Source: Trichuris trichiura
Taxonomy: Eukaryota > Nematoda > Enoplea > Trichinellida > Trichuridae
Assembly (NCBI GenBank): GCA_037903355.1
Contig: JBAJFE010000048.1
Location: 1 to 64,000, forward strand
Direction of reading: 5' to 3'
Length of the DNA stretch: 64,000 nt
Every line of letters begins with the position of its first letter. The stretch's first letter is position 1. The position numbers were made by a program, and so were the translations under genes. Shown one piece after another: positions 3,440-54,640 of the stretch. The notes under the pieces were generated by a model. The model ran no database searches and was not told where the DNA came from. It saw nothing but the letters and a program-made list of their open reading frames with translations.

Positions 3440-3985
3440 GTGCTGAAGTACTTGTTTAGTACTTGTTTACTGAGTAAAAGTAAAAGGAAGCTTTTAGAAC
3501 TGCGCGCATTCCGTCGTGGGGGTACCTAATGACAAATTGTGACACAAACTAGCACGTTTATAGAGAAGGTAGGAGACTGGCTTTGTCGTGCCTATAATGG
3601 CTTTATGCAAATCTTTCGGCGACATTGGCCGCCGTGGGGTTGTGTGGTTCGGAACAAGGAGGAGGATCGTAAAAACCACACACCAAGCGCAATAGGACGA
3701 CAAACAAGGATGATGGTTACACTCGGTCAGTGAAGTATGGCCTACCGGTAATAGCCGCATGCATGTGTTCCCACGTTCATCCATCCGAACCACAAAACCG
3801 CACTGTCTCCAGCGCTGCCGAAAGATTAGCATCAAGCCATCATATGCATGACAAAACCGGTCACCCACCTTTTCTATAAATGCACTGGTTTGTGTCACAG
3901 TTTGTGATTAGCTACGCTCACGACGGAACGCGAGCAGTTCCGAAAGTTTCCTTATTTTTTACTCAGTAAACAAGTACTACTCCAC
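3440..3985. repeat. Foldback element with imperfect inverted arms
   Basis: The sequence 3440-3665 returns reverse-complemented at about 3760-3985, with about 80-85% identity by eye. The outer ends share GTACTTGTTTACTGAGTAAA. Both arms contain a decayed version of the hammerhead-like motif: 3491-3517 on minus, poor, and 3917-3945 on plus, better. The pair of similar reading frames on opposite strands here is a by-product of the inverted repeat and not two genes. Likely two PLE-type terminal repeats joined tail to tail. Confidence 0.7.
3917..3945 (+). ncRNA. Hammerhead-like motif, one core mismatch
   Basis: Reads CTCACGA, C, GGAAC, loop, GTTCC, GAAA. The stem is intact. The core has one change (CTC for CTG), which would be expected to abolish cleavage. 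The stem and loop match the motif at 54611-54640. Confidence 0.5.
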
Positions 3986-5141
3986 TTCCATTACTGTTAA
4001 CAGGGAAAAACCGGAACAGGCACCTTGGCATATTGAACAAAATTCGTGTCAACAAAAGAACCCTACGTTCAGCTTAAAATAGGATTTAAAAGCGAAAAGA
4101 AAGATCGTACGACGAATTCAACGTTTTGCATGCGACTACCCCACTTACTTTTGGTCCGGATGGCTAAGAGAACCATCATGGAGCTAACTCACGTTAACAA
4201 ACACGTTTCTGAGTAGTTTCAACATTCTTAGTTCGAACTCATTGAATGAGATTAATTATCGTATAACGGTTTTATTCTGTTGGCAGTGGTCTAGATAATG
4301 GATGAAAAAAAAATACGTTGAGCTTCTCTGGTACCAGTAACAAAAAAAAACAAAATAATTAAATAATTTACCGGTAAAATAAAAGTGGCAGCCTAACTGT
4401 GCACTAAGCTCGTTTCCTTATAGTGCTAACCTATTAAAACTACTCGGAGTTCCGTGCTAATACAAAGGCGGCAAAAACCAGTTTAAGACATAGGTTCAAC
4501 ACAAAAGGATAAAAACAAACTTCTAACAACAGGATATTATTTAGGACGGGATCACGCACTTCCGCAGTCCCTAGGAAAAAATCATTGCTCTCAATGAATT
4601 TTTTTCATTTTTAGCAGCAAAAGTGTCAACCAGTGACAAAGATGCATACTTTCAATTCACATACAAACTATATAATACGCTTACCAGGTAAACAAAAGAA
4701 CAATACCTCCGACCTTCAAGTGGATACCAACAGTAGCTTCAGCAGACGGTTGGCAACTGTGTCAAGATTGCTAATACCTGCGAATCGATAACGTTTTCTG
4801 TAGCTTAACTTTTCGTCTGATTCGAATGGTACGTAAAATCGGGTTTTCCTAAGCTTATTGCATTTGCTCTCCGTATGGTTTACATGTTGTGATATGTAGG
4901 CTCTGTTAATGATTGTTGGTGTGTCCATACATAAAATGTCATATCCAACTTTGTTCGCAAGCATGTCGTAAGAACGCGGCAGAAGGCCACGTAAGTCATC
5001 TTGAATACCTGACCCTCACTTCTCTCCTGTTGCGAGTCTTGAATGCTAGTGACACGGGTACTGTGTTCGTAGCTTTTTTCTCAATTCGATTTTTCCCAAA
5101 GTTGGCTGGTCGATAACAGGGCTAAGTTCGTTCTTCATAAA
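3986..5141. other. AT-rich stretch without recognised gene
   Basis: About 1.15 kb between the foldback element and the Tigger copy. I see no reading frame with a recognisable domain, no RNA gene and no repeat boundary. Short open frames here have no conserved motif. Confidence 0.5.
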
Positions 5142-7876
5142 CAGGCAGTTCTCGTATAACGCGAGCGTTTGGTCACTTAAAAATCCTAAAAAATTTCGCG
5201 TTATATGAAATCGCGTTATAGGGGACATGTAAAGTATAGAAAAATCACGATTTGGTTCAAAGCGTCAGAAGGATTGTTTACTTGTATACAACAACGGAGA
5301 GATATCTTAAATAAGCTGGGTAGAAACAGGAATTATGATGTACCTGAGCTACTTATTCTACCGTTAGGCACGCTGACGTATGCATCCTCTTACACGGGGT
5401 CTGAATAACATTATCTTTTACGGCGATCATACATTAACGACAGAGCTTTTATGATAGAACTCTTTACAGCGGACAGAGTTCAAACTGGCTTTCAGGAGCG
5501 GCGTGCTTCCGTCTTTAGCTTGTGGAAAGAGTCTCTCTCAGTACTAAAATAAACGACCTCATAGCTAGGAAAGAATGGAGTTCCGTTGGACTCACTTTTT
5601 TAATCTCACTATCCTTTGTTATGGGCGAACTGAGGTCCTATTAGATGTAGAAGGTAGCGCTTCCTCATCGTCACGATGTTTCTTCATTGCAGTAAAGTAG
5701 AATTCGAGCTTCTTTTGTTTTGCACGTGTACTTCTTTCATGCAGCAGCGGCTTATATGGCTCCAAGCAAGCTCGGATACCTCTTGTGGTTTTCCCGCTGC
5801 GTTCTGCAATACAATCATTGTCTTCGAGGCATTGTAAACGCTGTTCAATAGTTTCGAGGGTATCTGACATCTCAGCAGTGGTCATTTGTCGCGGAGGAGG
5901 CGGAGGAACTTCCTGATTTTCATCATCTTCTTCTCTTCCTTCTGCTTCCTCTGCTACAGAAAGTTCCTGCAGCTCCTCGGCGGTCAGCTCATCCGGTTGA
6001 CAATTCAAAATGTCTTCAATATCCTGATATTCCACTCCTTCAAAGCCTAGCCTGTTTGCCAACTGAACGCAGCTTTCAGTAATTTCGCATACTTGAGCAA
6101 AAGGCTCAAAGTTTTCAAAATTGCAGATCAGATCTGGGATGATTTTCCGCCAAACGCGGTGCAAGCACTGTTTCGATACGTCATTCAAGGCTTCTACGAC
6201 GTTGTTAATGACCATTCTCAGCTTATAGTTCTTCCAAAATTCCGTCACAGTTTCATAATTTTCTCCGTCGGTCGCGTCGATCAGCATCTTGAACGTTTGC
6301 CTTAAGTAGTAAGCTTTGAATGCTCTGATAACGCCTTGGTCAAGCGGTTGTAACGAAGAAGTGGTCCGTGCAGGCAAGAAAACAAAGTGGACATTTGGGT
6401 CTAGCTCAGCTATCATCGGTAGGTGGCTTGGCGCGCTATCCGTGATTACGAGAACTTAAAAGCTAAGTTCTTCTCATTCAAGTATTTCTTAATGTCATTC
6501 ACATAAGCATTAGAAAAAATATCAAGGCAAACTTGGGCGGTCATCCATCCTCTTTTGCTGTGCCTGTAGTAAACGCCCAAACTGCTTTTAACGATTCCCC
6601 TTAGGGCTCGTGGATTGGCATGACGATGAATCATCAACGGCTTTAGCTTAAAATCCCCACTATCGTTGGCACCGAGCATTACAGTCATACGATCTTTCGC
6701 AGCGCAGATTCCTGCAGTATGCCTACGCTCTCTGGAAATGTAGGTCCTTTTTGGAATACTCTTTAGATAAAGATTTGTCTCGTCGAAGTTAAAAATTTGA
6801 TCCAGTTTCCTCCTCTTTGACCAAGTTTTGTACTTCTATTGGAAATGTTTGCGCGGCATCGACGTCCGCGCTTCCTGCTTCGCCACAGAGACGAACATTG
6901 CGAAAACTGTATCGATTCTTGAAACGGCAGAACCGACCACTACTAGCAGTAAATGGAGGAATTTCAGTAGGATTTGTAGACTGTTTTTAAGGTCTTCGTA
7001 AATGGTAACTGCTTTTTGTCTGATGGTGAAAAACGTTGCTCCTATTCTTTTCATCGTTTGAGTTTCGATCCAAATGCTGAGTAGTTTTTTCATTTCTTCC
7101 CGTATCTTAGGCCTTGTTTTTATTGACATTGCAATACTTGAACCGGTACCGCTTACGCAAGTCTGTTTAATTTTTTCTGCATTGCTCTTAATGGTCCGCA
7201 AGGTTGATTCCTTTATGCCGGTAGCTTTGACGATATCACGTGTCGTCTCATTCCGTTCACACCGTTTCAGTATCTCAAGCTTCTCTCCAACAGCCAGCGC
7301 CTTTCGTTTTCGACCACTACCAGCTGACTTCGAATCAGGAAGCTTAGACATTTTCAGATACTTAAAGGCTATCCTCAGATCGCGGAATCAGACAAAATAC
7401 TTACGAACTGAGCTTGCAATCAGACGGTGTGAATGCTTTCCGAATTCTGTGCTAGCGTACTACGACTCACTGGAAAACTTCAACGATACCTGCGCTTCGG
7501 GAGAATTGAAAATGGAAACGTCGTCTGTGCAGATGTTCCTGTCGGCGCGAATTGTTCCACCGAACATGAATACTGATCAGTAGCCAGTTTGAGTATGCAT
7601 ATCGCAGGGTGCACTACTTCTGATAAGAATCCTAAACGTTTTTTGTCACATTTCGCTTGTTCGTGACCGAAGAACGCGCATAAGCTAACAGAGCGGCCTT
7701 TGTTTGCTCTCGGTGGATGAAAACACGGGGAGACTGCCATACGCCCACGCTTTCCAGCCGGCGAAATCGCGTAAGAGCGAAAACAGAATCGCGTTATGTG
7801 AGAAAATGCTACGATTTGAAAATCGCGTATAAGCGAAAACGCGTTATATGAACACGCGTCATACGAGAACTACCTG
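5142..7876 (-). mobile_element. Tigger-type (pogo superfamily) DNA transposon, copy 1
   Basis: The ends are inverted: CAGGCAGTTCTCGTATAACG at 5142 and a related sequence ending in ACGAGAACTACCTG at 7876. TA follows the right end; the expected left TA is mutated to AA. Sub-terminal repeats of the CGCGTTATA type lie at both ends. The transposase is on the minus strand, 7351 down to 5619. The element is longer than a bare transposase because about 0.5 kb of non-coding sequence flanks each end of the gene. A second copy of the same family starts at 9924. Confidence 0.88.
5619..7351 (-). pseudogene. Tigger transposase, frameshifted
   Basis: A DNA-cutting DDD transposase of the CENP-B/pogo group. 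Residues 1-70 (from 7351) form the CENP-B-type N-terminal helix-turn-helix, with KRKALAVGEKLEILKR and a GIKESTLRTI recognition region. The first catalytic segment, in the NFDET region, lies near 6770-6800 in another frame. The block MTVMLGANDSGDFKLKPLMI is at 6688. The last catalytic segment is followed by SSLQPLDQGVIRAFK at about 6360, and an acidic tail with a poly-Pro run ends at 5619. A frameshift after EDLK near 6985, plus breaks near 6835 and 6450, inactivate it. The segment 6416-5619 is a clean 265-codon stretch. Confidence 0.85.
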
Positions 7877-8211
7877 TATTTTAACATACCTCCTCCGTTT
7901 TAAGCTATTGATTACAATTAAAAGTGAAACAGTTTATTGATAACAATAGACACACTTCCGTAGCTCTTCCAACTGACGCGTTCTGCTTGCAGCGCTGAGG
8001 ACGGAACGTGTCAAAAACCACATCTCTCGGAAAGCTATGCAAGCGTGACTATTGTTATCAATAAACTGTTTATCTTTTAACTGAAATCAGTAGCTCAAAA
8101 GACAGGGAGATACGTTAACAAACATGAAGAAAGTGTTCTTTTGTTCACTCAGATAAAGTTACTCCCAAAACTGACCGTTAGGAAACTAAATCGTGGCTCT
8201 TAAACGACCTA
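7877..8211. repeat. Short inverted-repeat element between Tigger and hAT element
   Basis: A segment at about 7918-7951 containing AACAGTTTATTGATAACAAT reappears inverted at about 8046-8078. The intervening 95 bases show nothing recognisable. It could be a small foldback or MITE; ends and target duplication were not resolved. Confidence 0.45.
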
Positions 8212-10420: not shown

Positions 10421-10649
10421 TGTTCGGGACAGTCTGAACTCTTCCATACGTCTTACGGTAGAGACAACCTGCTCATCTCCGGAACCGATTACGAAGGGCA
10501 CACAGACAAGTAGTGCAGTCAGTCGTTTTCTAGTGTCAGTGTCCGTGCATGAGTGTTATCGGTACTATTCTATCGCGCGCCAGTCTGTATTTAAAATGTG
10601 CAAGTAAAATAGTTATACAGTCCACTATCGACGGCTACCGGCTGTAACA
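10421..10649 (+). repeat. BEL 5' LTR
   Basis: Starts TGTTCGGGAC and ends CTGTAACA. Seven substitutions by my count separate it from the 3' LTR over 229 bp, about 3%. A tRNA primer site should start just after 10649; the sequence there (TTCTGGTCCTCTGAGCC) was not matched to a specific tRNA. Confidence 0.95.
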
Positions 10650-10707
10650 TTCTGGTCCTCTGAGCCGGATCGCCGGGTTGTTTCTTTGAACCGAAACCAT
10701 TGCGTCT

Positions 10708-11886
10708 ATGGATCAGCTAAATCGACTGAAGAGATCGCGGGCAGGCCTGAAGGCGCGGCTCACGGTTCTTACTAAAGAGCTGAAGACGGCGTGCAGTACA
10801 ATGCAGGATGCATTGGCGGTAGAACAACTCATGACTTGCGTGGATGCAGTAGCAGTAAAGGCAAGAAGCGTTCAAGAAGAACTTGAGAGTTTGCTCTCTG
10901 AGGAGCAGGTAGAGCAGGAAGTCAACGTGTACATGATATTGGAAAGAGATATCACGGCGCTACGTGTAGAAGCGAGGCGGTACATTGAGAAGAGCAAGGA
11001 ACAGTCTGCCAAGGAAGTCCACAATGGTGGAGCTTGTGCTCCTGTTCTACCTAAGTGGGATTTGCCAAAATTCAATGGTGATGTTCTCTTGTTCACTGCT
11101 TTTTGGGACCAGTTTGAAGCTGGTGTTCATTCAAGATCAGACGTAAGTGACGTCACGAAATTCGTGTACCTAAGGACATGCCTGGAGGGCATTGCTTTTG
11201 ATGCAATAGCAGGATACAGTGTAACTGCGGCCAACTATGCCGCAGCAGTCGCTACTCTGAAGAGTAGATTTGGTAGGCCGAACCTGATTGCGGAGAAGCA
11301 CATCCTGGAACTCATGCAAACGGAAAAGTGTAATCGACCGACGGCTAGGGAACTGCGGCAGCTGCATGACACAGTGGCTAGGAATGTGAGAGCATTGGTT
11401 GCTCTCAACAAGGATCCTTCAAATGAAACTCTGTCAGCGGCAGAGGTGCTATTAGCAGTGCTCAAGCAGAAACTTCCCAGTATCGTGCGCAAGCGATGGG
11501 AAAGCAAAGTTTTGGCTGAAAGCCAAGAAGAAATGACCTTGGACGCATTCCTCGAGTTCCTGCATTCACAGGTGGAAATCGAAAACGCGGCTGTCAATTC
11601 TGAGAAGGAAGGCTGCAAGAACAAAAGAAGAACAGAGCCCTCTGAGCTAGAACAAAGGCGCAGGAAGGACTGGTTTCCGTCAGCAGCTGTGCTTCAGGCG
11701 ACAGTTCACAAAAGAAATATGTGCAGCTTTTGTTCTGGGGAACACGAAAACGCCACGTGTCAACGCTTTAGGAATGTCGACGCAAAAGGATGTTGGAAAA
11801 TGGTAAGGGAAAAACGAGCCTGCTTCTTGTGTTTGGGAAGTCTTTATCAGATGCACGAATGCAGTAAAAAAGAGGAAGGGGTTTAG
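10708..11886 (+). CDS. BEL gag polyprotein segment
   Basis: 392 codons from ATG 10708 to TAG 11884-11886. It has a coiled-coil-like, charged N-terminus (residues 1-100) and a central capsid-like region with WDLPKFNGD and the FWDQFE block common to BEL gag proteins. A cysteine-rich end follows, with CSFCSGEHENATC (CX2CX3HX4C zinc knuckle) and a degraded second knuckle (CFLCLGSLYQMHEC). The next frame, 11896-12606, is in the same phase. The TAG therefore looks like a nonsense mutation, or possibly a readthrough stop, inside one gag-pol frame. It would form the particle shell that packages element RNA in the cytoplasm. Confidence 0.85.
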   Translation: MDQLNRLKRSRAGLKARLTVLTKELKTACSTMQDALAVEQLMTCVDAVAVKARSVQEELESLLSEEQVEQEVNVYMILERDITALRVEARRYIEKSKEQSAKEVHNGGACAPVLPKWDLPKFNGDVLLFTAFWDQFEAGVHSRSDVSDVTKFVYLRTCLEGIAFDAIAGYSVTAANYAAAVATLKSRFGRPNLIAEKHILELMQTEKCNRPTARELRQLHDTVARNVRALVALNKDPSNETLSAAEVLLAVLKQKLPSIVRKRWESKVLAESQEEMTLDAFLEFLHSQVEIENAAVNSEKEGCKNKRRTEPSELEQRRRKDWFPSAAVLQATVHKRNMCSFCSGEHENATCQRFRNVDAKGCWKMVREKRACFLCLGSLYQMHECSKKEEGV

Positions 11887-13725
11887 TATCATCCCATGCT
11901 TGTGGAAAAGCGAAGGAGGGAGAAAGGTCAGGCTTCAGAGAACCGCAAAGTTCAAGTTGGCTTAGCAGGCATGCCGACAAAAGGAAGAGTTTTACTGCAA
12001 ACAGCCCGAGCAGTGATGCGGACTATGAGCGGAGATCGCACGGTGGTTATGTGCCTATTAGACGCTGGATCGCAACGTTCCTTCATTACTGAAGAATTGG
12101 CAAATAGAATGCGTCTCAACGGCCCGCTGGAATATGTAGAAATTTCCACATTGGGTGGACAGAGCAAGTACTGCAAGAGGATTCGACGAGTTCAATTTGC
12201 CCTCAGTGCTCTTGACAGCAGAGAGCGAAGAGGAGCTAAGCAGTGGCGAACGGTGGAAGCTTTGTGCTTATCAAAGATCTGCTCACCTATCCAGGCGAAT
12301 CCGTTACTTCAGAGACGATGGAAACATCTGCATGGACTGAAGCTCGTTGATCGGTTTCCAAGAGAATGCTCCAAAATAGATGTTTTGATTGGTCTTGACT
12401 ATTATTATGATTTTGTTAGTCAGGAGGTGCGTCACGGGCACGCAGGGGAACCAGTTGCCTTGCGAACCTTGTTCGGTTGGATAGTATGCGGCAGTATCGG
12501 TGAGGGAAACAAGGTAAGAAATGTGCGATCTTTGCACGCGCAAGTGATGGAGGACCCTAACGAAATTTTGACAAAGCTTTGGGATCTTGAAGCGCTAGGC
12601 ATCTGAGATGCGGAGGAGGCGAGGAGAGGTCAGTCAACAGAGGCGATAACGCACTACATCGAAAGTATAACCTTTGAGGGGGAGCGATGCGTCGTTCGAT
12701 TGCCATGGAAAACTGACGCTGTGAACTTGCCCAACAATTATAAGCAAGCAAAAGGGAGATTGTTTCAAATAGAAAGGAAACTTAGTGCTTCACGTCAAAC
12801 GTCGAGATACATGGAAGCCATGGACACCTACATCTCAAATGGCTGGGTCGAAGAGGTACATTATGACAGTGGTCAGTCGGGAAAAATTTGGTATCTCCCG
12901 CAGCACGCAGTCTTCAGAGAGGACAAGACCACCACTAAGTGCCGTGTTCTGTTCGACGGTTCGGTACGCCATGAGGGTCAGTCGTTGAATGACCACCTAG
13001 AACCAGGCCTAGCGTTACAAACTGATCTAATTGGAATTCTGTTACGCTTTCGTCGATATCGGTTTGGGTTGCAAGCGGACATCTCAAAGATGTTCATGCA
13101 AATAGGGTTGCCCGAAGATGACCGAGATGTTACTCGATACTTATGGCGAAACATGAACACTGACATTCCACCAGAGATCTTTCGTTTTAAAAGATTAACC
13201 TTTGGGTTAAGAAGTTCCCCATTTTTGGCTGTCATGGTGGTTCAGCACCATACGCGTCTTCACATCGAAACTTACAAGCGAGCTGCCGAAGAAGTTCTCT
13301 CTAACATGTACGTTGATGACTTCTTGACTAGTTGTACTGATTCAGACGAGGCTGAGCAGCTGGTGGACCAGCTGCGGAAGTTAATGCAGTTGGGTGGATT
13401 CAATCTCACGAAATGGAAGTGTAATTCATCATCGGTAGCAGAAGCAATAGGTGCGACTGACGTTACGGCGAACAATGACAGGATTGTTTCTAAAGTTTTG
13501 GGAGTGCCGTGGAACTTGGGTCAGGATGCATTGTCATTTATCACGCCACACGACGTGATTTCGAAGTCTCGTGAAACGAAAAGAGAGTTATTGAGTGCGG
13601 TGGCGAAAATCTTTGACCCCATGGGATTTTTAGCACCATTCACTATACGGGCAAAGATTATCCTACAGTCACTGGCAAAGCGGCTCTGGCTGGGACGAGA
13701 GTATTCCAGATGTTCTGAACGCTAA
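11887..13725 (+). pseudogene. BEL pol: A17 protease and reverse transcriptase
   Basis: This continues the gag phase. The protease carries the BEL signature D-A-G-S (LLDAGSQRSFI near 12058). A TGA at 12604-12606 interrupts it where related elements have an arginine codon, so it is probably a CGA to TGA change. Reverse transcriptase follows in the same phase, with the palm motif YVDD near 13312 (SNMYVDDFLTSC) and a thumb region ending near 13690. A frameshift at about 13685-13695 moves the rest into another frame. Confidence 0.88.
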
Positions 13726-15901: not shown

Positions 15902-15926
15902 TGGGCCATGCCCATGGCGGGGAGCA

Positions 15927-16155
15927 TGTTCGGGACAGCCTGAACTCTTCCATGCGTCTTACGGTAGAGACAACCTGCTCATCTCCGGAACCGGTTACGA
16001 AGGACACACAGACAAGTAGTGCAGTCAGTCATTTTCTAGTGTCAGTGTCCGTGCATGAGTGTTATCGGTACTATTCTATCGCTCGCCAGTCTGTAGTTAA
16101 AATGTGCAAGTAAAATAGTTATACAGTCCACTATCGACGGCTACCGGCTGTAACA
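15927..16155 (+). repeat. BEL 3' LTR
   Basis: Same 229-bp length and the same ends as the 5' LTR. It is followed directly by the AGCCC duplication and then by the Tigger sequence that precedes the transposase start. Confidence 0.95.
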
Positions 16156-16174
16156 AGCCCTTAAGTATCTGGAA

Positions 16175-17589: not shown

Positions 17590-18068
17590 CAAAGGATAGT
17601 GAGATTGAAAAAGTGAGTCCAACGGAACTCCTTACTGTTCTGGGAATGAGGTCGTTTATTTTAGTACTGAGGGGGACTCTTTCCACAAGCTAAAGACGGA
17701 AGCACGCCGCTCCTGAAAACCAGTTTGAACTCTATCCGCTGTAAAGAGTTCTATCATAAAAGCTCTGTCGTTAATGTATGATCGCCGTAAAAGATAATGT
17801 TATTCAGACCCCGTGTAAGAGGATGCATACGTCAACGTACCTAACGGTAGAATGAGTAGCTCAGGTACATCATAATTCCTGTTTCAACCTAGCTTATTTA
17901 AGATATCTCTCCGTTGTTGTTTACAAGTAAACAGTCCTTCTGACGCTTTGAACCAAATCGTGATTTTCCTATACTTTACATGTCTCCTATAACGCGATTT
18001 CATATAACGCGAGATTTTTTAGGATTCTTAAGTGACCAAACGCTCGCGTTATCTGAGAACTGCCTGTA

Positions 18069-18400: not shown

Positions 18401-18585
18401 TGTATCGGGATGGTATTTCATGGTTCTGGTAGATGTTCTACGGCTTTTCCCGTTTTTTGTCTATGTTGGAATATAGTTTCTTTTTTCTGTTTTCTTTTCT
18501 TTTAACATCCGTTTAGAAATTTTGTTCTGATCTCTTCGTAGCGAGATTTTTCAGCCAGTTTTTTAATTAACGTTTAATGCGAAGC

Positions 18586-18614
18586 TTTCTGGCCTCGCCG
18601 TGGCCCGCCATCAG
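18586..18614 (-). ncRNA. Hammerhead-like motif, degenerate
   Basis: On the minus strand it reads CTGATGG, C, GGGCC-type stem, AGAAA. Core position A9 is changed to G, so it is probably inactive. It is the mirror partner of the motif at 18974. Confidence 0.5.
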
Positions 18615-18973
18615 CACAATTTGTGCCGCCCGTCGGATCGGTCATTATGTTAGGAAGCTGCTCCGTCTGAAAGAAAAGAGGACAACGAACGATGGAGAAG
18701 AAAGAGGATGGAGTGGCGGGAAAGAAGAGAGTTTAAAACCCGTTTGTTTAAAACAGACGAGTATATATAGTTTGTTCGCTCGTTGTTGCTCTTTTGTTAG
18801 TGTTGTCTCCGTCATTGAAGGTCGGTTCGGTGCTCGCTCGAAGTCTGACTGACTAGGCGGGACCGAAGCCTGACTGCTCAAGGCAGAACTGACGGCGGAA
18901 GTTTCTGCCAAGGTCAGTCGGATGGAGCTGCTTGCTAACATAATGACTGATCCGACGGGCGGCACAAATTGCG

Positions 18974-19002
18974 CTGATGACGGGCTACGGCGAGGCCCGA
19001 AA
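18974..19002 (+). ncRNA. Hammerhead-like motif, intact core
   Basis: Reads CTGATGA, C, GGGC, loop, GCCC, GAAA on the plus strand. Both conserved core boxes and the stem are intact. No gene is adjacent, so it marks an orphan element terminus. Confidence 0.6.
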
Positions 19003-19167
19003 GTTTCGCATTAAATGTTAAAAAAACGGGCTGAAAAATCTCGCTACGAAGAGATTAGAAGAAAATGTTGGAATCTATAGCGTCTTCGTATGGGACAATA
19101 ATTTTTCATGAGCTGACTTTAATTACGGAGCCCAAGTCCCGTCGAAAAAATGTTATTTCTCCGGAGC

Positions 19168-19195
19168 TTTCGGGTCGAACGAGACCCGTCTTCAG
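19168..19195 (-). ncRNA. Hammerhead-like motif, left arm of palindrome
   Basis: Minus strand: CTGAAGA, C, GGGTC, loop, GACCC, GAAA. A perfect five-base-pair stem. Confidence 0.6.
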
Positions 19196-19218
19196 CGGTT
19201 ATAAGTAACTTATAACCG

Positions 19219-19245
19219 CTGAAGACGGTCTCGTTCGACCCGAAA
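19219..19245 (+). ncRNA. Hammerhead-like motif, right arm of palindrome
   Basis: Plus strand: CTGAAGA, C, GGTC, loop, GACC-C, GAAA. The 5' stem strand is one G shorter than in the left arm, so the pair is not perfectly symmetrical. Confidence 0.58.
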
Positions 19246-19419
19246 GCTATGGAGAAATAAACGTTTTCTCGACGGGACTTGGACTCCGTAATTAAAGTCA
19301 ATTCATTATGAAAAATGTTGGAATCTAAAATTAAACGAAACATTTGCTCTACCAACGGATGGATGAGCGATTATTAAGAAAAATGTACAGAAACAATGCA
19401 CTTAACTTTATTTCAGAGC

Positions 19420-19447
19420 TTTCGGAACGCTCTAATTCCGTCGCCAG
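19420..19447 (-). ncRNA. Hammerhead-like motif 3' of a PLE frame, CTGGCGA variant
   Basis: Minus strand: CTGGCGA, C, GGAAT, loop, GTTCC, GAAA. It lies about 70 bp after the end of the PLE frame at 19516. Core A6 is G here, and the same variant recurs at 52202. Confidence 0.5.
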
Positions 19448-19515
19448 TGAGTTGGAAGGGGTGTTTACTCCGAAGGGCTACTAAATAAGCGTACGTAACA
19501 AAAGGGATGGGGACG

Positions 19516-20055
19516 TCAGCGTAGCAGGGAGCAGCATTTGGTTTTACTGATGAGTACATCCCATCCCGCGTTAAACTCTGCACCTTTATCACGGTTGATA
19601 GTACGACTGTGGCGGAAATAAAGGGCCTCCTTTACCAAGAGTACGTGTAAACGGCTCTCGCGACAGATTATCTGCGGACGTAGGCCGAGCGAGTACTGAG
19701 AGGAATGCTCGACGACTGTGGAGGCTTTGATTTTTTCTGTAACTCTCTCCGGTTGTTTTTTCTGTGGTCGACCTCGCCGCAGATTATGTGCCCATTGTCC
19801 GTCCGGTTGATTGAGTCTTCGCACCCCCTCTTTGTATCAGCCGATGTTAGACACGCGTGTGTTGAACTTGTCAAATAAAATGTTGCCCGTCTCTCCTATG
19901 TAGGAGGCGTTGCAACTGCAGCGGATCTCGTAGACAGCGCCAGGTCTCCTGTCAAAGGGAACTGCAATCTTATCGCTCCTCACCATTGAACGTAAACTGT
20001 TTGATGTCAGGAGCGGAAACGTAAAATCAAGCGAGCGGCTTAATCGTAAAATTCC
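19516..20055 (-). pseudogene. Penelope-like element, GIY-YIG and C-terminus
   Basis: Minus strand. The linker near 20040-19990 is followed by a GIY-YIG nuclease start, with AVYEIRCSCNASYIGETGN near 19940-19885. The typical tail has RPQIICRESRLHV, KEALYFRHSRTINRD and CCSLL, ending near 19516. The frame changes near 19850. Reverse transcriptase is absent. A plus-strand PLE piece abuts at about 20060, so two opposed fragments are joined here. Confidence 0.8.
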
Positions 20056-20059
20056 CCGG

Positions 20060-20400
20060 GAGTATAAAATTAACTATGGAGACAGAAGTAAATAACAAAC
20101 TCCCCTTCGTAGACATTTCAGTCATAAAGCAATGCAAGGGACTAAAGACCTCCGTTTGTAGAAAACCAACCCACTCTGATATGTACTTGCATTTCACTTC
20201 TTATCATCCTTTGTCGGTTAAAATAGGGATTCTAAACGAAATGGCCAACATGGCCCTATCAGTCTGTGACCCCGCATTTTCTAGCTGCTGAATTAAGACA
20301 CATCTGTAATACATTCACAGATAACGGGTACCTGCACACACTTGTTAAACATGTCGCTGCTGAATTTAGACGGAAGTCTAACCCAGTTAATGAGGGTCAC
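20060..20400 (+). pseudogene. Penelope-like element, RT-to-linker fragment
   Basis: Plus strand from about 20076: KLPFVDISVIKQCKGLKTSV, the block CRKPTHSDMYLHF, YHPLSVKIGILNEM and VCDPAF, all typical of the segment after the RT palm in PLEs. Frameshifts follow at 20280 (AELRHICNTFTDNGY continues in another frame). It fades out after about 20380. Confidence 0.75.
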
Positions 20401-22599: not shown

Positions 22600-23950
22600 A
22601 CGTACGTTGGGTCTCCTGCGAATCAGGACGACACGGTGTGGGTGTGTCATTGTCTGTAGCGCGAGAAGTAGGTCGTTTGTCGCTCTCTCTCTAACTTGCG
22701 CTTCACGAGTAAACGTTCTTCACGTTGGCTGGCTCCCTCACGCGCGCCCAAGTTACAACAATTATTATTGTTGTTAATTTTTTTAAATTTCTTTGTACGG
22801 GTTTTCCGTTTTTTAAAAAATCCAGCGTACACGGTAATGAGCCCCGTTCTTCAAAAAAAAACTTATTAATAACCACAGCTTTCGGGCATCGTCTTTGCCC
22901 GTCTTCAGTGGTAAAAAAACGAGTCCACCACCCAGGTTGGTCGACTATTCAGCAAGCGCTCCCACTCAGCCAACCTGGTCAAAGGTAAGATCGGTTGGGT
23001 CCTACCGTGGACCGCGTTGATGTTCGCCTACAGCCATAGTCAGCCGTGCAAGAGCATAAGCGTCACTGCCGAACGTCCCGGGCGGCGACAAACGAACAAT
23101 AACAGCGGTGAGGTCTCTGCGTAACCCGTCACTTTCGCTGGTTTAAAGTGACTGAGACTAAAATCTTTTTTCTTAATCTTGATCATCTTTTTCTCTTCCC
23201 GATGTTGTCACAACACCACTTTTTATCCGCGGATAATGCTCAACGGTCCAAGGTGATTGACGTATAGAAACTGTGAGTATAACTGGCTCGGCTGAATAGG
23301 TTAGCATCTGTATGCGTTTTATTCTATTGCACAGCATCAATTGGAGATCTATTAAACGGCGAGATGCATAAAAATAACACCGTAAAATCATGCATGAGCT
23401 TTTGAGGGGCTATAATGGTTGCCGAAAAAGGTGTCAATTCTAGTCTAGTGCTTCTTCTTACAACAAACAAGCGGTGAGGGCGAACTCCGCGCTGGCTACC
23501 CCGCTCAACGTTTCTGGGCATTTTTCATCTCATTTTTCTGTGCCAACTCTCTCGATTCTTTCCCTTCGGCCAGAGTGCAAACTGCAACCAGCTTCATAGC
23601 TACTACTGCGTGAAGCCGGAATATCTTTACTCGCGAAGACATGTTAAGGCCACCTCCGGCACGGTTATAGCAAAGCGAATGAAAAGAGCTGAGCTCGACG
23701 CAAACGAATACAATTAGGCTCGATTCGTCGTATTTTGCTCCATAAGAGAATGCTGTCGACGCCTGGGTGAAAGGTAATATAAACGAGGAAACGCGCAAGC
23801 TGCGCCGGCAAGCATGAAGAAAGCATCGTCAAAGCAACGGAATCGGTTCTGTAATCAGGAATCTCCAATGCACGGTAATGAAAAACTTCGCTACGTTGAG
23901 TAATGAATGGCACATTGAAGCAATGACGGTTAACAGCTCCCAGCGACTGA
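22600..23950. other. Non-coding, one PLE-like mark only
   Basis: Apart from the hammerhead-like motif at 22880-22908 I see no conserved protein motif or repeat boundary. Short open frames on both strands have no family resemblance. Confidence 0.45.
22880..22908 (-). ncRNA. Hammerhead-like motif
   Basis: Minus strand: CTGAAGA, C, GGGC, loop, GCCC, GAAA. Core and stem are intact. Confidence 0.58.
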
Positions 23951-24314: not shown

Positions 24315-41710
<17,396 letters not shown>

Positions 41711-46100: not shown

Positions 46101-48714
46101 TGGGGATAGGGCTTTTTTGACAGGCGTACAAACGCAGTTCTGGTTTTGACGTCTTTCTTTGCAATGTTATGTGAAATGATTATGAATTGTGGCAGTGTCT
46201 CAAGTTGGAAATTTTAAACAAGAAAGTAACTGTTGAAAGGTGCAACTGTGATTCAACAATTTATGAAAGCAGAGAATAAATTGAAAAATAACTTTAAAAA
46301 TGCAGAAGAAAATGCAGTAACATAAATGGTTGAGAAGATGAATAAAGTCTAGCTGCAGCTCGAAGTCAGCTCATATAGCTCTGAGGAGACAGAGCAGCCC
46401 TCGAGTAGCATCTGTCAAAAAAGTGGTACCTTTCTACAGTGGCAATCCATACATTTCTTGAAAACAAATATATGTGTGCGTTGTGACGAAGTACGAAATT
46501 AGTGGAAACCATTGCAAAATGCTATATCTTCACAATGACCTTACTTTCTCGACGACTGGCAACAGTAAAGTAACGCTTTTAACTTAATAGCTTTCAGAAC
46601 TTTTTACGTTCCATCTTCAGAGAACAACATTAGTGTATACCGACATAGAAATTTTATTTTACCAATAATCGGTAGCTTTTAAGAAGGCAAGAAGGAACGG
46701 ATGAATTACTAATAATTGTGTAACATGCGGGCTGTTTATCATTTTAACGGCCGTCCTTTCAGTCAGCATTGCTGCAGTAGTTCTGAGCTTTTCCACTTCA
46801 GACAGTTTGCTTAATTTCTAACTTCCTGCTTCGTAGCTCGCAAGTGTGACGGTTTCAACAGTTTGGACAAGCGAAAGACTATTCAATGCCATATTGACGG
46901 TAACTATTAGTTTTCTAGATTTTAAAAGATTAAAGAGCAACATTGGCCATGTCCATGCTGATTTGGGTACTCTCACTTTCAGCGATGATACCATTTATTT
47001 GATGTAAACGGCAATAACAAGAAAAAAAATATGCATGAGCGTATATGAATATATTCTGTACAACGGTGAGGCACGGAAAGATGTTGACAGAACGTAGAAC
47101 GGGAACGAGCACGCCGTCGGCTGAATGAGAAGACAGGAGCATCCACTCGGGAAGATACCGAAAGAAGAGCTAATGCGCACCGAAACTGTTGGCTTAAATA
47201 ACGGTGCGGGTAAACGGAAAAAGGGACCACCCGTGCGGGAAAGGAGTTTAGCTGAAAGGTCCCCTCACCTAGACGCCAATCAAACTGACGGTTTAGCAAT
47301 TGAAGAAACGGAGAGTGCAGTCCTCTTGCGCAGCTAATCACCTTGAATAACCTATTTATAAAGCAATGAGCCCTGTGCAACGTAAGCAGTTGTCAAGCTT
47401 GGCCTTCAGGCAGCTATGCTGCAGTGAAGGCGTGAGCTACCCCTGACATACTCTGTTCACCGAACCATGTCTGGTAAAAACGAATACGGTATAATTATGA
47501 AGTTAAATGAAGGGAAAATAAAAGGAAGTTAAATCTTAATTACAGATATGCATAGACGGTCAAACAACCACAGTCCAAATGATTTAGTTCACTTTAGTGG
47601 CAGCTTGATGAAACTGTATGCTATTTAGTGCCTGATCTGCTTTCTTTGATTTCTATCATATGCTGCGCGCACAAAGAGTTACTGAAGTTGGAATTGTGCA
47701 TGTATTGCCACTTATTATTGATGATTGTGACTTAATGGTAAATTGTTGACCATTTTTAAGGCCACTGTGCATTGTGTCATGGAGAGTTCAGCCGTTTAAG
47801 CGATGCTGTTAAAGCTCACGGTTACTTGTTCCACCGTGAGTGTTTCATCTCTCACAATCATGGTGGGCATAGAAATAATTCATTCAGCCTTAATGTTCCG
47901 TAAACTTTACTTTCAGGCAGCTCCTTGCATGGAGAAACCTTTTATGAATCAGACTTGGGCTTTTGTTGCAAAGAAGATGATATGGTTTGTTTATTCGTTT
48001 TATTCTTCGTTTATTTTCTCTTCCTAGTATCCTGGTTACCGAGAATTCGCCGAGAAGTGTCATAGCTGTGGAAATTTAATCCTGGCGATGGTACTTCGTC
48101 TTCTCGATAGCTGTTTCGAAGAGAACGTTTTGTGCTCTTTAGCTACTTCAAGCTGGGGGGAAGTGTTTCCATCCTCAGTGTTTTCGTTGTTGCAAGTGTA
48201 AAGTTTGCTTGGACGGGGTTCCATTCACGGTGGACAATCAGGGCCGATTCTTTTGCGTGCAAGATTACCACACATTGTTCGCTCCTAATTGCGCAAAATG
48301 CCGAGCCCCAATCACACCAGTTCCAGTAAGATTAGATGTGCTGTGTGCTTCCATTTGTAAATGAATCGTTATGCAGGGTGCTGAAGAAACTGTACGAGTT
48401 GTTGCTATGCAGCGAGACTACCATATCGATTGTTACGTCTGCGAAGTACGTAATATTTTGGCTTCAAAGATCTGTCGTTTACATATCGTTGTATGGGAAC
48501 TCAGCATCTATTATTACATGCCTACATATCACCGTTATCTCACATTGCAAGTTGAGTTCCCAACGAAATATTTTTTATTTAGGGTTGCGGCGTGCAGCTT
48601 ACAGACGAGCCAGGCAAACGCTGCTATCCTTTGGAAGAACATTTGCTTTGTCGCTCTTGCAACTTTTGTTGGACACTTACCGGTGGCACTGTTAATCCCA
48701 TTACGGACGTATAG
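43118..48714 (+). CDS. Ajuba/LIMD1-type triple-LIM protein (eight exons)
   Basis: An adaptor of the Ajuba family, which acts at cell junctions and in Hippo signalling. I read the exons as 43118-44042, 44097-44258, 47761-47862, 47917-47984, 48028-48090, 48143-48325, 48377-48445 and 48583-48714, all GT/AG, phases matching, about 567 residues. The N-terminal 360 residues are unstructured and Ser-rich, with cysteine clusters. Three LIM domains end the protein: LIM1 (HCALCHGEF...), LIM2 (KCHSCGNLIL...FRCCKCKVCLDGVPFTVD) and LIM3 (NCAKCRAPITPV...DYHIDCYVCEGCGVQL, ending LEEHLLCRSCNFCW). AEETVRVVAMQRDYH is the Ajuba-type LIM3 signature. In LIM1 the CxxC pair of the second finger is replaced (CFISHNHG). 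Intron 2 (3.5 kb) holds a pogo remnant; the others are 43-137 bp. Confidence 0.92.
44890..45960 (-). mobile_element. pogo-type DNA transposon remnant in an Ajuba intron
   Basis: A minus-strand transposase remnant occupies most of this interval; terminal repeats were not resolved. It lies in intron 2 of the LIM gene, opposite to the host strand. It differs in sequence from the Tigger copies at 5.1 and 9.9 kb. Confidence 0.75.
44978..45945 (-). pseudogene. pogo-type transposase, frameshifted
   Basis: Minus strand, from about 45880. The first helix-turn-helix is MTRRSYKAGFKLEFVKMAKE with AARKYGVTWKMVIDWRKQK. The second DNA-binding CENP-B-like region at 45651-45412 has WVREQRQSGRIVTRSDMKDK, MNWARYNPH and GFTATHGCCSRFIKRKDL. 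The first part of the catalytic domain, 45394-44978, has the aspartate in ISNMDETPICFHM, then VVLSCLANGMKLKPMVIFKR. The remaining catalytic part is missing. A stop and shifts at 45672 and 45400 separate the pieces. Confidence 0.8.
45961..47760. other. Rest of Ajuba intron 2
   Basis: AT-rich and without gene signal. It contains one hammerhead-like motif at 46592. Open frames near 47.0-47.3 kb have no recognised domain and lie within the intron. Confidence 0.45.
46592..46620 (-). ncRNA. Hammerhead-like motif in an intron
   Basis: Minus strand: CTGAAGA, T, GGAAC, loop, GTTCT, GAAA. The core is intact with one G-T pair at the stem base. It is antisense to the host gene. Confidence 0.55.
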
Positions 48715-49091: not shown

Positions 49092-50950
49092 CCCTTGTAT
49101 CCTCCGGTCCCCTGGTCTGCAATGAAAAGTAGCGAAATCTATTTGGTCAAGTATTTCACGGGCTTCGACACGGCTCCTGACGAATGGAGGGGCTCCACGC
49201 GACTGCGAACCCATCCCCGGTCTCCCGACGGCTCTTCAGCGAACGGACCCTTCAAAATGACAAATTCGAAGTCCACACAGCAAACCAACAGAGAGCAGCT
49301 GTAGATTTTGTAAAAACTTAAAATTTTCTGCAAGCCAATAGTCTTGCTTAACTTTCCTAATTGCACGCGGAAAGTACCAATGCCGGCACTATTCCGCACG
49401 AATGGAAGTGCTCCATGCGTTTGCAGAGTCCTCCGCGATCTACGAGCGGCTCCTGCGCGGAAGACGCGCCCTACAAATTGACAACCCCAATGTTTACGAA
49501 AGGAATCAACCGGAAGCAGGTCCAGAGTTTGTAAAATGTTAGAGTTTTTCTCAAAGGAATTGTTTTACTTAGCTCTTCTGAGTGAACGCAGAAACTACCA
49601 CCTCGGGCACGGTTCATGAGCAATAGAGGGACTCACGGGGCTTGTGGACTTTTCCGCGATGTCTGGTGGGCTAATAGAAGGAAAATGGACCCTACAAAAT
49701 GGTAAAGCCGAACAGTACGAAGGGAGTGAACCGCCGGCAGGTGCTTATTTTCTAAAAATTTAAAATGTTCTTCAAAAATACTCTTTAACTTAGCTTTTCT
49801 AATCGGACACAGAAAATACCAGCCCAAGGCACCCCTCGTGACCAACATAGGGGCACACTGGGCTTCTAGTCCAGCTGTTGCTACGTGGAAAACGGACAAA
49901 GCAGAACGCCAAAGTCGAAGTCTAAGAAGGAAATGCACCGGGAGCAGCCATAGATTTTCTAAAAGCTTAAAATGTTTTTCAAAACAACTGTTTTACTTAA
50001 CTTTTCTAATCAGACCGCAAAAGCACCGGCGTCGGCATGGTTCCTGCCGTGCGCAGGTGCTCCAGGGCTTGTGGACCCTTTCGCGGTCTCAGGGCGCCTC
50101 TTGCGCAAAGACGGATCCTATAAAAGGACGAAGTCGAAGTATACGCAGGAAACGAACCGGGAGCAGGTCTAGATATTCCAAAGCCTTAAAGTTTTCTTCA
50201 AAAGAATTTTTTACTTGACTCTTTTTACCGGACCACGAAAAGAGGGGCGGTGGCACGGTTCCTTACAGGTGGAGGTGTTCCATGCGCTGGTAGACGCTCC
50301 CGCGGCCTGCGGGTGGCACCTCCGCGGAAAGTAGACCCAACAAAGTGATAACGGCGAAGTATACCGGGCAAGTAAACCGGAAGCAGCATCAGATTTTGTA
50401 AAAGCTTCAAATGTTCTTGAAAAATATTGTTTTACTTAACTCTTCTAATCGGACGCTCAAAATGCCGGTGCCCTCACGGTTCATGACGAACAGAGCGGCT
50501 GCACGGACTTGTGGACCCCTCGGCAGTCTCCAAGAGGTTACTTTGTAGAAGATGGATCCTGCAAAATGACAAAGTCCAGTATGCGTAGGAAACCAACAGG
50601 GAGGAGGTCTAGAGCTTGTAAAAACTCAAAAGCTTTTAGAAACCAATTGTTTTACTTAACTTTTCTAATCGAACCCCTAATAAATTAGCGCCGACATGGC
50701 TCCTCACGACAGGAAATCCTCCACGCGCTTGTGAACCCTGCTACGGGCTCCAGGTGGCTTCTGTGCGGAAAACGGCACTATGAAAAAACAAAGTCGAAGT
50801 ATACGAAGGAAATGAACGAGGAGCAGGTGCAGATTTTCTAAAACCTTAGAATTTTCTTCAAGAATATTGTTTTACTTAACTCTTCTGATCGGACGCTGAA
50901 AATACCGGTGCCGGCAGGTTCTCTGACGAATCGAGCGACTCCACGAAGTC
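49092..50950. repeat. Satellite-like tandem array, about 220-bp unit
   Basis: The block TTTTACTTAACTCTTCTAAT, or a close variant, recurs near 49343, 49563, 49782, 49991, 50210, 50430, 50650 and 50870, giving spacings of about 209-221 bp. Each unit also has a GGAGCAGGTCTAGATTTTGT-like part and a purine/pyrimidine-balanced GC-rich part ending GTGGACCC. Units differ by roughly 15-25%. Short open frames repeat because the unit repeats; they are not genes. Confidence 0.92.
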
Positions 50951-51156: not shown

Positions 51157-53230
51157 GCAGCGGGCATTGCAAGCGCATTCTATTCGGTGAATAGTGCTTA
51201 GTTTAACGTGTATCGGTATCGTGGTTCCACTATTCCTCAAAATAGACTTCAATGGACGCAGATCTGAGTAGATCCTGGAATTTAGTGCTCACTGTTCATT
51301 TATGACCAAGACTTGAAGAAGAACGCAAGTAACGGGAACTTTCGTGGTACTGTTAGGCGTAAAGGCTCCGCGAATTTTGCCAATGCTCACTCTCGACCTT
51401 TGGCTAAAGATAACTTGTCGCAAGAAGCCGTTCGACGTATGGAACCTTGATAAGGCACCTTATGTTCACTATGAACTAGGTCGTAAAAGCGAGAATTATT
51501 CTAATGATCCAAAACAAACAGCACAGATTAACCCTTTGACCAGTTGTCAAATCTTTATGTCACCCTGGCAACGATGAAACTTTGCTTTTGATTTGCTATC
51601 GCTTATGACGGTAGCAGAAATGTTCTGGAGATTACCAAGGTTCACCTGTTTGCTTTCGAGAGCAAAAGTTAAAGCGCTTGTTCACAAACAGCTACCGCTT
51701 TTCCAGTCTCTCAATTAAAAGGTGAACAAAGAAAAGCGAATGTCAGAACGACGTTCGAACATGTAATCCGTGCAGTTACCCTGACAATCGCAAACAGAAT
51801 GAAGAACTAAGACAGAGTTCTTATTTTTGCGCCTTTCTTAGGTCTGGTAGGTTATAATTGTGATGTGTGCTCTGTCATTTTGCTCAAACAAACCGAATGC
51901 AACCAGTCACACAATCATCTCCGTATTCTTAATCAACTTTGTTGCCTTTGTCCCAGCTAATGGAAGGATTATGGCATACAAAGGCGCCTCTGGTTTTTCG
52001 TAGGGTAACATGCTCCCATTGCATATGATTTTCAGTGGGAGGACGAGAGAGCATTCAAACAAAGATGCAGAGGCGTCAAGTTCAGTGAAGCGTGAGCTGT
52101 TCTGATCAGTAAAACCAGGAACTGCCCATTAAGTCCTTCATCCGTATCTTGCTCATTAAGACGGCTAGCTACAGGTAACCACATGTTGCGTGTGTTTAAT
52201 GCTGGCGACAGAATCAGAAGCGTTCCGAAAGCTTTGAGGCAACAGTCTTCTATTTTCAACTAAGCATGAAGTTCTTCTCTCAATCTTCTTAATCTTCAAC
52301 GACCTGTAGCGACCCACGATTAAAAACCTTTCCGTTTTTTCCTTTGCGAACTAATTAGATACATGTGACTATGATTATAGACGAAGAAATTACGCGTTAC
52401 CCGTTGGTAAAAGATAACAGTCACATGTCAACCATGTGTCGTGACCTGCGTTTATCGGCATTTTTAAGCGAAATTAAACAGTTGTATCAAAAGCAGTTGT
52501 GCTGATCGAACAGCGAACGTACCCATTACAGACCAACACCTAGGACGTTTGGTAGTTGTCAGCATTGAGCAACGACTATCCTAGACGAACATGATAGGGT
52601 GATGGTTCTGATATCCCAGGCTTAAACTATGGTGTAAACTGCATTACTTCTACTTAAAATTATTGCACACCAAATGACATTTCAACTTCAGTAGAATAAG
52701 CTGTGCTGTTATTTTTTTAAACCTTTGCTGTTGCTAACGGATTTCGTAATCCATCAAGCAGGCAGTAAGCTTTGGTAAATTTAAAATTTCGGTGCATTAA
52801 GCGATCTTACAGTGTTTCTTCAGAAAACGTATGCAGCCTTTCTGAGACAGCCAATATTCAAATTTAACTGTTTCTATGGATAAGGAGTTTTATTACTATT
52901 CATAAGCCATTATGACTTAAGAAGCTGACTGAAAACAGTATGAGGTACCTATGGCTAATTTTGGGAAATGAGAAACTAAAAGCAGCAGGTGAGTGATAGC
53001 TCATCATAGTAACACGAGGTACTAGCATTACGCGCAGGTTGAGAAGACATAATAACAGAAAACAGCATTTTCTCAAGTCACATGATGGAATCCTACCACT
53101 AGATACACAGAAAAGAATACTGCGCTGCTATTATCTTCAGCAGTGATTCGTCAATCCCTGCGGAAAATAAAGTCATTCTTTTCTAAAGACAAACGGCGTT
53201 GAGACAAATCCACAGATAACGAGGGCCTAC
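51157..53230. other. Unassigned sequence with scattered transposon marks
   Basis: Open frames at 51344-51577 and 52032-52259 match no family I know. A hammerhead-like motif lies at 52202. The end, 53207-53230 (CACAGATAACGAGGGCCTACTGTA), is a Tigger2-like terminal repeat like that at 27897. Confidence 0.45.
52202..52230 (+). ncRNA. Hammerhead-like motif, CTGGCGA variant
   Basis: CTGGCGA, C, AGAAT, loop, GTTCC, GAAA. It shares the A6 to G change with 19420-19447, so both descend from the same sub-family. Confidence 0.4.
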
Positions 53231-53237
53231 TGTACAT

Positions 53238-53785: not shown

Positions 53786-54194
53786 ACCCTCGAAATTTGC
53801 AATATGGCATCCCCGTCATTAGGCATCACGGGAAGTGTAGCAAGCTAATCGGTCTCCCTGGGAGTCTTCTTCAGCAATGTAAGCTGCGTGACAGCTTATT
53901 GCGCCAGAGCAAAACTGGTATCCCTATCTTCCAGCGAGGAAAAGGGAACAGATAAGCGCAACGTGGGGGAGGGGGAGTGCTTTGCTTGGGGGCAAGAGCA
54001 GTGCTTAGCCGAAGCGATGGTTGCTGGAACTTGAGGGTGGTGCGAGTGTGTGATCTGCCAGTGTAGTCGGAGTAAAAATTTTTCGTTCTCCTTCCTTGCG
54101 TGTGTTTACTGCAACAAGTTCATTTAAATCTGTTTGTATTTTGCCATCCATCTTTGTTTCGGTCTTCCTCGAGGGCGTTTTCCCCTGTTGAATG

Positions 54195-54332
54195 TGTAAT
54201 AACAAGAGACGATGCGCACGCAAGTCCTCCTTTACTCTACAGTCACTGCTGTACATTGCATAATTACAGTACAATGTGTGCTCGAGAACGGTTACGGAGC
54301 AGCGCCTATTATCCACCCTAACTGATACTACA
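54195..54332 (-). repeat. Gypsy 3' LTR
   Basis: 138 bp; differs from the other LTR at about five positions. A G-rich purine tract (GGTGGGGGACGGG on minus, about 54333-54346) lies directly before it. Confidence 0.92.
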
Positions 54333-54344
54333 CCCGTCCCCCAC

Positions 54345-54480
54345 CAACGCAAGCTCGTGTGGGGATCGCGGAAACATAGTCTCGTAAATATGTTGGTGGC
54401 CGCCGCTGTCTGTCAGGATACCGCCGTTGTTCTGTTGTCTGTGGGTTCCCGTGGTGCCAATGGAATATCTCCATGGGTGT
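54345..54480 (-). pseudogene. Gypsy pol C-terminal end beyond the PLE
   Basis: The minus frame reads MEIFHWHHGNPQTTEQ, then RQRRPPTYLRDYV, an Arg/Pro-rich end usual for Gypsy pol. It is the continuation of 56760-58994 after the PLE insert and stops just before the purine tract and LTR. Confidence 0.7.
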
Positions 54481-54552
54481 CTTCATAGTAGATCTTCAGA
54501 TTCACGGGTTTGGCCTGTTGGATGTATCTGTAAGTAAACTTCAAAGTGCCCT

Positions 54553-54570
54553 ACCAACGGATGGATGAGC
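54553..54570 (-). repeat. PLE terminal block
   Basis: ACCAACGGATGGATGAGC on plus. It lies 3' of the PLE frame and its ribozyme-like motif, giving the order frame, motif, block in this best-preserved copy. Confidence 0.75.
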
Positions 54571-54610
54571 AAATTGTAAGAGAAAATACAGAACAATTTG
54601 TATACCGTAC

Positions 54611-54640
54611 GTTTCGGAACTGCTCGTGTTCCGTCGTCAG
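54611..54640 (-). ncRNA. Hammerhead-ribozyme-like motif, best copy
   Basis: Minus strand: CTGACGA, C, GGAAC, loop ACGAGCA, GTTCC, GAAAC, then GTACGGTA. Core boxes CTGANGA and GAAA are exact. After GAAAC the run GTACGGTA can make the very short stem III of PLE-type hammerheads, with GTA as cleavage triplet. It lies 66 bp after the stop of the PLE frame. Hammerheads of this minimal type are established in Penelope-like elements. An unpaired pyrimidine sits between CTGACGA and stem II, and a stem I was not clearly found, so activity is not certain. Confidence 0.7.

Follow-up and report, generated by a model that had tools for sequence, protein, structure and literature searches.

The first 64,000 nucleotides of contig JBAJFE010000048.1 of the nematode Trichuris trichiura (assembly GCA_037903355.1; this whole stretch is called the window below) hold remains of Penelope-like retroelements and, beside them, short motifs of hammerhead ribozyme type. 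Seven stretches of the window resemble Penelope-like proteins in tblastn searches. Five of these reach the C-terminus, ending at 54709, 39226 and 19525 on the minus strand and at 3251 and 30271 on the plus strand, and every one of the five ends is followed, on its own strand, by a copy of the motif at a distance of 59-355 nt. The motifs are very probably minimal type I hammerhead ribozymes lying in the pseudo-long terminal repeats (pseudo-LTRs, pLTRs) of Penelope-like elements, many of them in solo or inverted pLTR remnants of insertion. An initial annotation of the window had listed eighteen hammerhead-like motifs and connected them with Penelope-like elements; both the type and the origin are borne out, the copies lying 3' of Penelope-like genes.

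The 5'-truncated element at 54706..56925 (-) (RVT_1, 1.6e-11; tblastn) has an open frame at 54706-56718 that encodes 670 amino acids with a reverse transcriptase (RT); homology reaches 56925, and the 3' pLTR carries the hammerhead at 54596-54651. Residues 375-668 of this protein are 49% identical to a GIY-YIG fragment at 39220-40107, the protein gives no GIY-YIG match of its own in Pfam, and its closest relatives among the matches listed come from Trichuris muris and T. suis. The Penelope-like fragment with the GIY-YIG domain, 39211..40305 (-) (PF01541, 4.4e-6; tblastn), has its C-terminal end 250 nt upstream of the motif core at 38976 (-). A C-terminal fragment lies at 19489..20160 (-) (tblastn), where the match to the window's protein stops 78 nt before the core at 19447 (-), and a C-terminal scrap at 30131..30295 (+) (tblastn) ends 355 nt before the core at 30626. 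The fragment at 1834..3254 (+) (tblastn) extends to the C-terminus at 3251, the core at 3310 following after 59 nt, and has an inverted partner at 1-1785 (-) (inverted repeats I2 and I6). The inverted repeat 1-823 / 1926-2751 (span 1-2751) is 99% alike, with Penelope-like RT sequence on both arms. RT and GIY-YIG occur in one open reading frame (ORF), both Pfam domains being found in 2 of the 120 relatives listed (P0063 and P0101). The motif lies in the pLTR, with the start of the ORF downstream of it. On contig C1 of the same genome, an ACGT-type motif stands exactly 72 nt beyond the coding match in seven of nine elements, in a test confined to the best matches listed and to the strict ACGT form (the nine elements correspond to 10 matches, as one of them was matched in two pieces). 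An almost perfect palindrome of 198 bp at 22272-22469 shares a stretch with the Penelope-like pLTR at 54530-54570.

As judged by sequence, the motif consists in order of a short stem I, CUGANGA followed by one pyrimidine, stem II, GAA, a tetranucleotide that is mostly AGCU or ACGU, and a cleavage base that is mostly not G. A covariance model was trained on 47 copies, all from genome loci other than the window; they are what remained of 53 candidate rows from outside the window after L017, L021:1144-1197, L024:1490-1546, L025:1488-1544, L033 and L044 had been dropped as doubtful or lacking stem II. The model finds 16 matches in the window at E<=4.6e-5, which comprise 15 of the eighteen annotated places (E 2.9e-20 to 4.6e-5) and a copy overlooked by the initial annotation at 3299..3354 (+) (E 1.2e-7); the annotated places 31127, 31792 and 52202 are borderline or weak. 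In a background control of 135,827 bases (14 of its 16 stretches chosen by place) there was one match at E<=1e-4 and three at E<=0.0015, values that understate the background because the control omits L034 (4 copies) and L036 (2 copies), which are sources of model rows.

The annotated wording of the core, CTGANGA plus a pyrimidine plus GAAA, holds to the letter at 11 of the eighteen places by direct reading and is altered at the other seven; stem II is paired with at most one mismatch in 8 of the 11. (For copies on the minus strand the annotated coordinates are the left, 3', ends.) The best copy, 54596..54651 (-) (E 2.9e-20), has the core CTGACGA followed by C, GAAA, the palindrome ACGT, cleavage base A and a stem I of 4 bp with one G.U. 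The core letters are likewise intact at 30615..30669 (+) (E 1.4e-13), 37633..37687 (-) (E 5.9e-14) and 22864..22919 (-) (E 5e-14), the last of which, with G as cleavage base, is probably not cleavable. They are intact but accompanied by a broken stem I at 46576..46629 (-) (E 4.6e-5), and by AGTT after GAA at 18963..19018 (+) (E 8.8e-11). The copy at 33661..33715 (+) (E 4.2e-10) has the palindrome ACGT and a broken stem I, and that at 41108..41162 (-) (E 1.2e-11), in which stem II is partly mispaired, adjoins an inverted pLTR piece at 41168-41238 (inverted repeat I15). The copies at 19152..19206 (-) (E 6.5e-17) and 19208..19261 (+) (E 7.6e-12; stem II one base short) are the left and right arms of a head-to-head pair. 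Altered cores are seen at 3906..3961 (+) (annotated at 3917; CTCACGA; E 1.2e-6), at 18570..18625 (-) (18586; CTGATGG; E 1.8e-8), which is the left arm to 18963..19018 across a centre of 359 nt, at 19404..19458 (-) (19420; CTGGCGA; E 5.7e-10), at 35153..35207 (+) (35164; TTGAAGA; E 5.8e-9) and at 38933..38987 (-) (38949; GAAG for GAAA; E 3.4e-10). Three further places are doubtful, namely 31116..31171 (+) (31127; borderline, E 0.018), 31788..31827 (+) (31792; TTGAAGA; borderline, E 0.05) and 7984..8049 (+) (E 0.01), which is absent from the annotation. The weak copy at 52200..52236 (+) (52202; CTGGCGA) gives no match in the window search under default filters; when filters are switched off in a search of 601 bases, it scores 9.9 bits (E 0.015). 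To judge by their letters, many window copies look like decaying relics: 11 of the eighteen have the core letters, and fewer also have stem I and a cleavage base other than G.

Counts far exceed those in shuffled sequence, provided that the extra pyrimidine is allowed. In comparisons with 100 dinucleotide shuffles, the strict descriptor with this pyrimidine finds 8 places in the window (shuffle mean 0.12, maximum 1) and relaxed core letters with GAA[AG] find 13 (0.56, maximum 3); one of these 13, at 14583, is not among the eighteen and is probably a chance match. Relaxed core letters followed by GCT, CGT or GTT after GA[AG][AG] find 14 (0.17 in 100 shuffles, maximum 2). Without the extra pyrimidine the strict descriptor finds 1 (0.17 in 100 shuffles, maximum 2). 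A looser scan with the textbook descriptor, likewise lacking the pyrimidine, gave 3 against 0.92 (maximum 3, 50 shuffles) and was set aside as the wrong descriptor; the textbook hammerhead has little or no excess in the window. That the motifs are chance matches to a loose pattern, as the three weak or borderline places among the eighteen could suggest, is improbable in the extreme: the shuffles, the E-values of the model and the genome counts against reversed patterns given below refute it for at least 15 of the eighteen.

The motifs are real RNA structures of hammerhead type. Across 44 distinct rows 90.3% of cells are paired (79.5% in helix 1, 95.5% in helix 2), 70 cells are changed on both sides against 28.8 after shuffling (0 of 500 shuffles as high), and the covariation score is 0.413 against 0.191 (0 of 500 as high) and at most 0.096 with partners slid; 2 of the 11 pairs in this count are the AGCT/ACGT palindrome, which was preselected by the search pattern. 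Compensatory changes occur in both helices, so that the compensating stem changes on which the initial annotation had based its case for a selected RNA structure are confirmed by covariation in stems I and II. In a single register, 88, 79 and 81% of 42 clusters form pairs 1, 2 and 3 of stem I, respectively; the four-pair mean of this register is 0.73 against 0.37 or less in eight other registers. The cleavage base in these clusters is C in 17, A in 16, T in 7 and G in 2, hence other than G in 40 of 42, in keeping with the NUH rule. The 42 clusters include eleven copies from the window and at least two probable chance matches, L017 and window 14583. L017 accounts for one of the two G clusters; a further G copy, window 22908, is masked by the cluster to which it belongs.

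The four bases counted from the last A of GAAA are AGCT or ACGT, with the middle bases free, in 95 of 100 places listed from a single strand of one contig, related copies being counted singly and T being fixed at the fourth place; the other five are AGTT (2) and AACT (3). T stands at the fourth place in 3,710 of 3,831. Between A9 and stem II, 4,611 AGCT places have a pyrimidine and 143 a purine (reversed-pattern control 13). Vertebrate Penelope-like elements have an extra base at the same place, together with ACGU. The canonical type I traits of a stable intramolecular stem III and a longer stem I are absent: stem III is a 4-nt palindrome with no loop and no intramolecular partner. As AGCT and ACGT are self-complementary and AGCU or ACGU cannot close a hairpin, a stem III requires two copies to pair with each other.

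The whole genome (72.7 Mb in 62 contigs) contains 4,611 places with the core letters and AGCT and 490 with ACGT, 5,101 in all, against 6 and 16, respectively, for reversed-pattern controls. The window has 10 strict-core copies where about 4.5 would be expected from the genome count, or about twice the average density; it is richer than average, yet not exceptional, and the density that the initial annotation had called unusual is not very special. A search for relatives in viral contigs found no Penelope-like gene and 15 pattern matches. The roughly 5,100 intact-core copies in one small genome form a natural data set that bears on two questions, the role of the ribozyme in Penelope-like elements and the way in which DNA synthesis is primed.

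High copy number and dispersal would also be expected of ordinary DNA repeats such as the terminal inverted repeats of DNA transposons, in which the likeness to a stem-loop would be incidental, and many motifs do lie within near-perfect inverted repeats. Such an origin is very unlikely, since stems I and II show compensatory changes specific to one register, hammerhead rules are obeyed by the core letters and by a cleavage base that is mostly not G, and the copies stand at a fixed distance from RT/GIY-YIG genes. It is somewhat less unlikely, though still improbable, that many copies are metazoan retrozymes, small tandem non-coding elements mobilized in trans, rather than parts of Penelope-like elements. 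Many copies have no neighbouring protein gene, and three identical intact-core motifs follow one another on one strand at steps of exactly 475 bp (C1:2085522, 2085997 and 2086472), possibly a small tandem array of the retrozyme kind. On the other hand, copies frequently end at the start codon of the Penelope-like ORF or some 40 nt inside it, the 72-nt spacing after the ORF recurs in seven of the nine C1 elements, and published animal retrozymes bear canonical type I motifs with loop-loop contacts, according to the available part of their description (PMC7229834).

Placement of the motifs in Penelope-like pLTRs also fits the ends of the insertions. In 17 rows aligned to a reference of the ACGT family, the 3' end falls at +4 to +6 of the ATG in six, at +41 to +45 in six and elsewhere in five; rows under the score cut are excluded from this count, which includes one alignment across families (L034 9398 -). 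The two sites, about 40 nt apart, match the optional tail and the two start sites of reverse transcription of Penelope-like elements (PMC3846280, in the part available; PMC11167929). Among the matches listed (two lists of 100 places each), the 16 inverted neighbours no more than 250 bp apart are all head-to-head; a limit of 500 bp admits one convergent case, which lies between two head-to-head pairs, and within 3 kb there are 25 divergent and 3 convergent cases. The centres measure 6-74 nt in 14 of 17 pairs examined, and several are plainly palindromic with loops of a few nucleotides. One of the 17, L027 1400/1501, was excluded because no inverted repeat was seen, which left 16 pairs. Arm identity is 89-100% in 14 of these, 85% in L025 and 76% in the mixed pair of L034. 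In the window, the arms of 19152..19206 / 19208..19261 are identical at 87 of 94 positions around a palindromic centre of 23 nt, and those of 18570..18625 / 18963..19018 at 85 of 93. By score, the extra tail of about 40 nt is present on exactly one arm in 13 of the 16 pairs and on both arms in none. The cut of 15 was set after the scores had been seen; in a control of 150 regions the 95% point lay at 12 and the maximum was 38, presumably a true tail. The three pairs with no tail call by score are window 19195/19219, L025 and window 18614/18974; on visual inspection, tails may be present on the left arm of 19195 and on both L034 arms. An earlier automatic tail test (7 of 69) proved too strict, and one of its seven, L004 (+), has no real tail by position. 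The head-to-head pair L034:3648-3758 has arms of different motif families (GGGAC and GGAAC stems), which suggests that two different template RNAs entered one insertion.

The head-to-head pairs could have arisen in two ways. Self-priming, in which a single cDNA folds back on itself, has nearly an even chance of being the explanation, in place of priming at both sides of a double-strand break. It accords with the short centres (6-74 nt in 14 of 17), several of them palindromic with tiny loops, and has been proposed for the same arrangement in a rotifer, in the part of that report available (PMC3846280). The tails speak for the alternative, as exactly one tailed arm in 13 of 16 pairs and two in none fit two starts on two strands; so does the related lizard protein, which cuts and extends both strands (PMC11167929), and the L034 pair, which joins two families, would be hard to obtain by fold-back of a single cDNA. 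A fuller proposal can be offered only tentatively and is more probably wrong than right. In it, the hammerhead of this whipworm lineage is a variant whose core has a conserved pyrimidine ahead of stem II, after A9, and which works only as a double ribozyme through its 4-bp palindrome; the head-to-head pairs across the genome would be fossils of two-sided priming, each DNA strand using a different start site on the RNA, one with the tail and one without, as a rule.

If the motifs are pLTR hammerheads of this kind, two pLTR copies, either in tandem elements or in two RNAs, would pair at AGCU or ACGU and form a double hammerhead, which would cut both RNAs after the palindrome and one further base, upstream of the ORF. 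The ribozyme may trim or regulate multimeric transcripts, possibly with the help of a protein; on present sequence evidence the processing of multimeric transcripts is most likely its function. A single copy transcribed alone may well not be cut, given the missing intramolecular stem III. The sampled insertions were copied from templates that continued through the ribozyme, so their ends were not determined by cleavage.

Several observations weigh against the interpretation given here. The Rfam hammerhead models, which the initial annotation had proposed as a test, find nothing in the window, with 0 matches at gathering and none among the 19 matches at E<=10, most of which are microRNA models on long hairpins. 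The miss is probably due to the lack of a stem III belonging to each copy, so that this test rejects a true finding, and annotation relying on Rfam may overlook an abundant animal ribozyme. Stem I has only 3-4 bp, with the fourth pair present in 22 of 44 rows; double changes affect 7 pairs, a number that shuffles also reach (5.7; 106 of 500 as high); and the copies share descent, which inflates the per-cell counts. With a looser anchor, inverted neighbours within 600 bp with both scores at least 11 number 17 divergent and 3 convergent, the three convergent cases being L016 and two in the window that lie between adjacent pairs, and at any score there are 23 divergent (one pair counted twice) and 14 convergent. 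No footprint of cleavage was seen, as 0 of 130 local alignments start within 6 nt of the cut site; the test is a weak one, in that its loci were mostly fetched around intact motifs and 18 of the 130 rows come from one cross-family stretch. In the related lizard element, ribozyme mutants left insertion in vitro unimpaired, the ribozyme cut only with added protein, and no RNA-seq ends were found at the cut site (PMC11167929). The uncut templates here agree with the lack of effect of the lizard mutants on insertion.

The window also contains other repeats. A BEL/Pao element at 10421-16155 (RT, Peptidase_A17 and integrase zinc domain), with end repeats of 229 bp that are 97% alike, is flanked on either side by relatives of a DDE_1 (pogo-like) transposon in inverted orientation to each other (5138-7370 and 16156-18070). 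A Gypsy-type fragment at 54194-59132 (RNase H and integrase domain) adjoins the Penelope-like element and is accompanied by a 139-bp direct repeat, 54194-54332 / 58994-59132. Degenerate repeats at a spacing of about 220 bp occupy 49262-50945 in six copies, five of which are 62-78% like the reference copy.

Penelope-like hammerheads that are minimal and number thousands per animal genome have already been described (PMC7761336, in the available part of the review), and reviews state in their accessible parts that such hammerheads act as dimers (PMC6466107; PMC7761336). A literature search joining Trichuris or nematodes with hammerheads or Penelope returned nothing on point by title or start of abstract; coverage was partial, and no claim of absence from print is made. 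The motifs of T. trichiura resemble the Penelope-like hammerheads, as far as these sources extend, in type I order, in the lack of a stem III of their own, in their location in pLTRs and in their thousands of copies per genome, but may differ in having a pyrimidine conserved between A9 and stem II and a palindrome that is mostly AGCU. With Pen2a of Adineta vaga (PMC3846280, in the part available) and PAc of Anolis (PMC11167929) the elements share RT and GIY-YIG in one ORF, a pLTR that reaches into the ORF, an optional tail of 30-40 bp and head-to-head inverted pLTRs with palindromic junctions; unlike these, they have left thousands of copies of the pLTR motif, and their two end positions are separated by about 40 nt. 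Metazoan retrozymes, too, carry a hammerhead in repeats, and some need dimers, whereas theirs has loop-loop contacts and belongs to RNAs of ~170-400 nt and the motifs here lie in Penelope-like pLTRs (PMC7229834, as far as available). The kind of ribozyme is thus already known, and in T. trichiura it is abundant and invisible to Rfam; possible novelties are its record in this host, the predominance of AGCU, the conserved pyrimidine and the regularity of one tail per pair.

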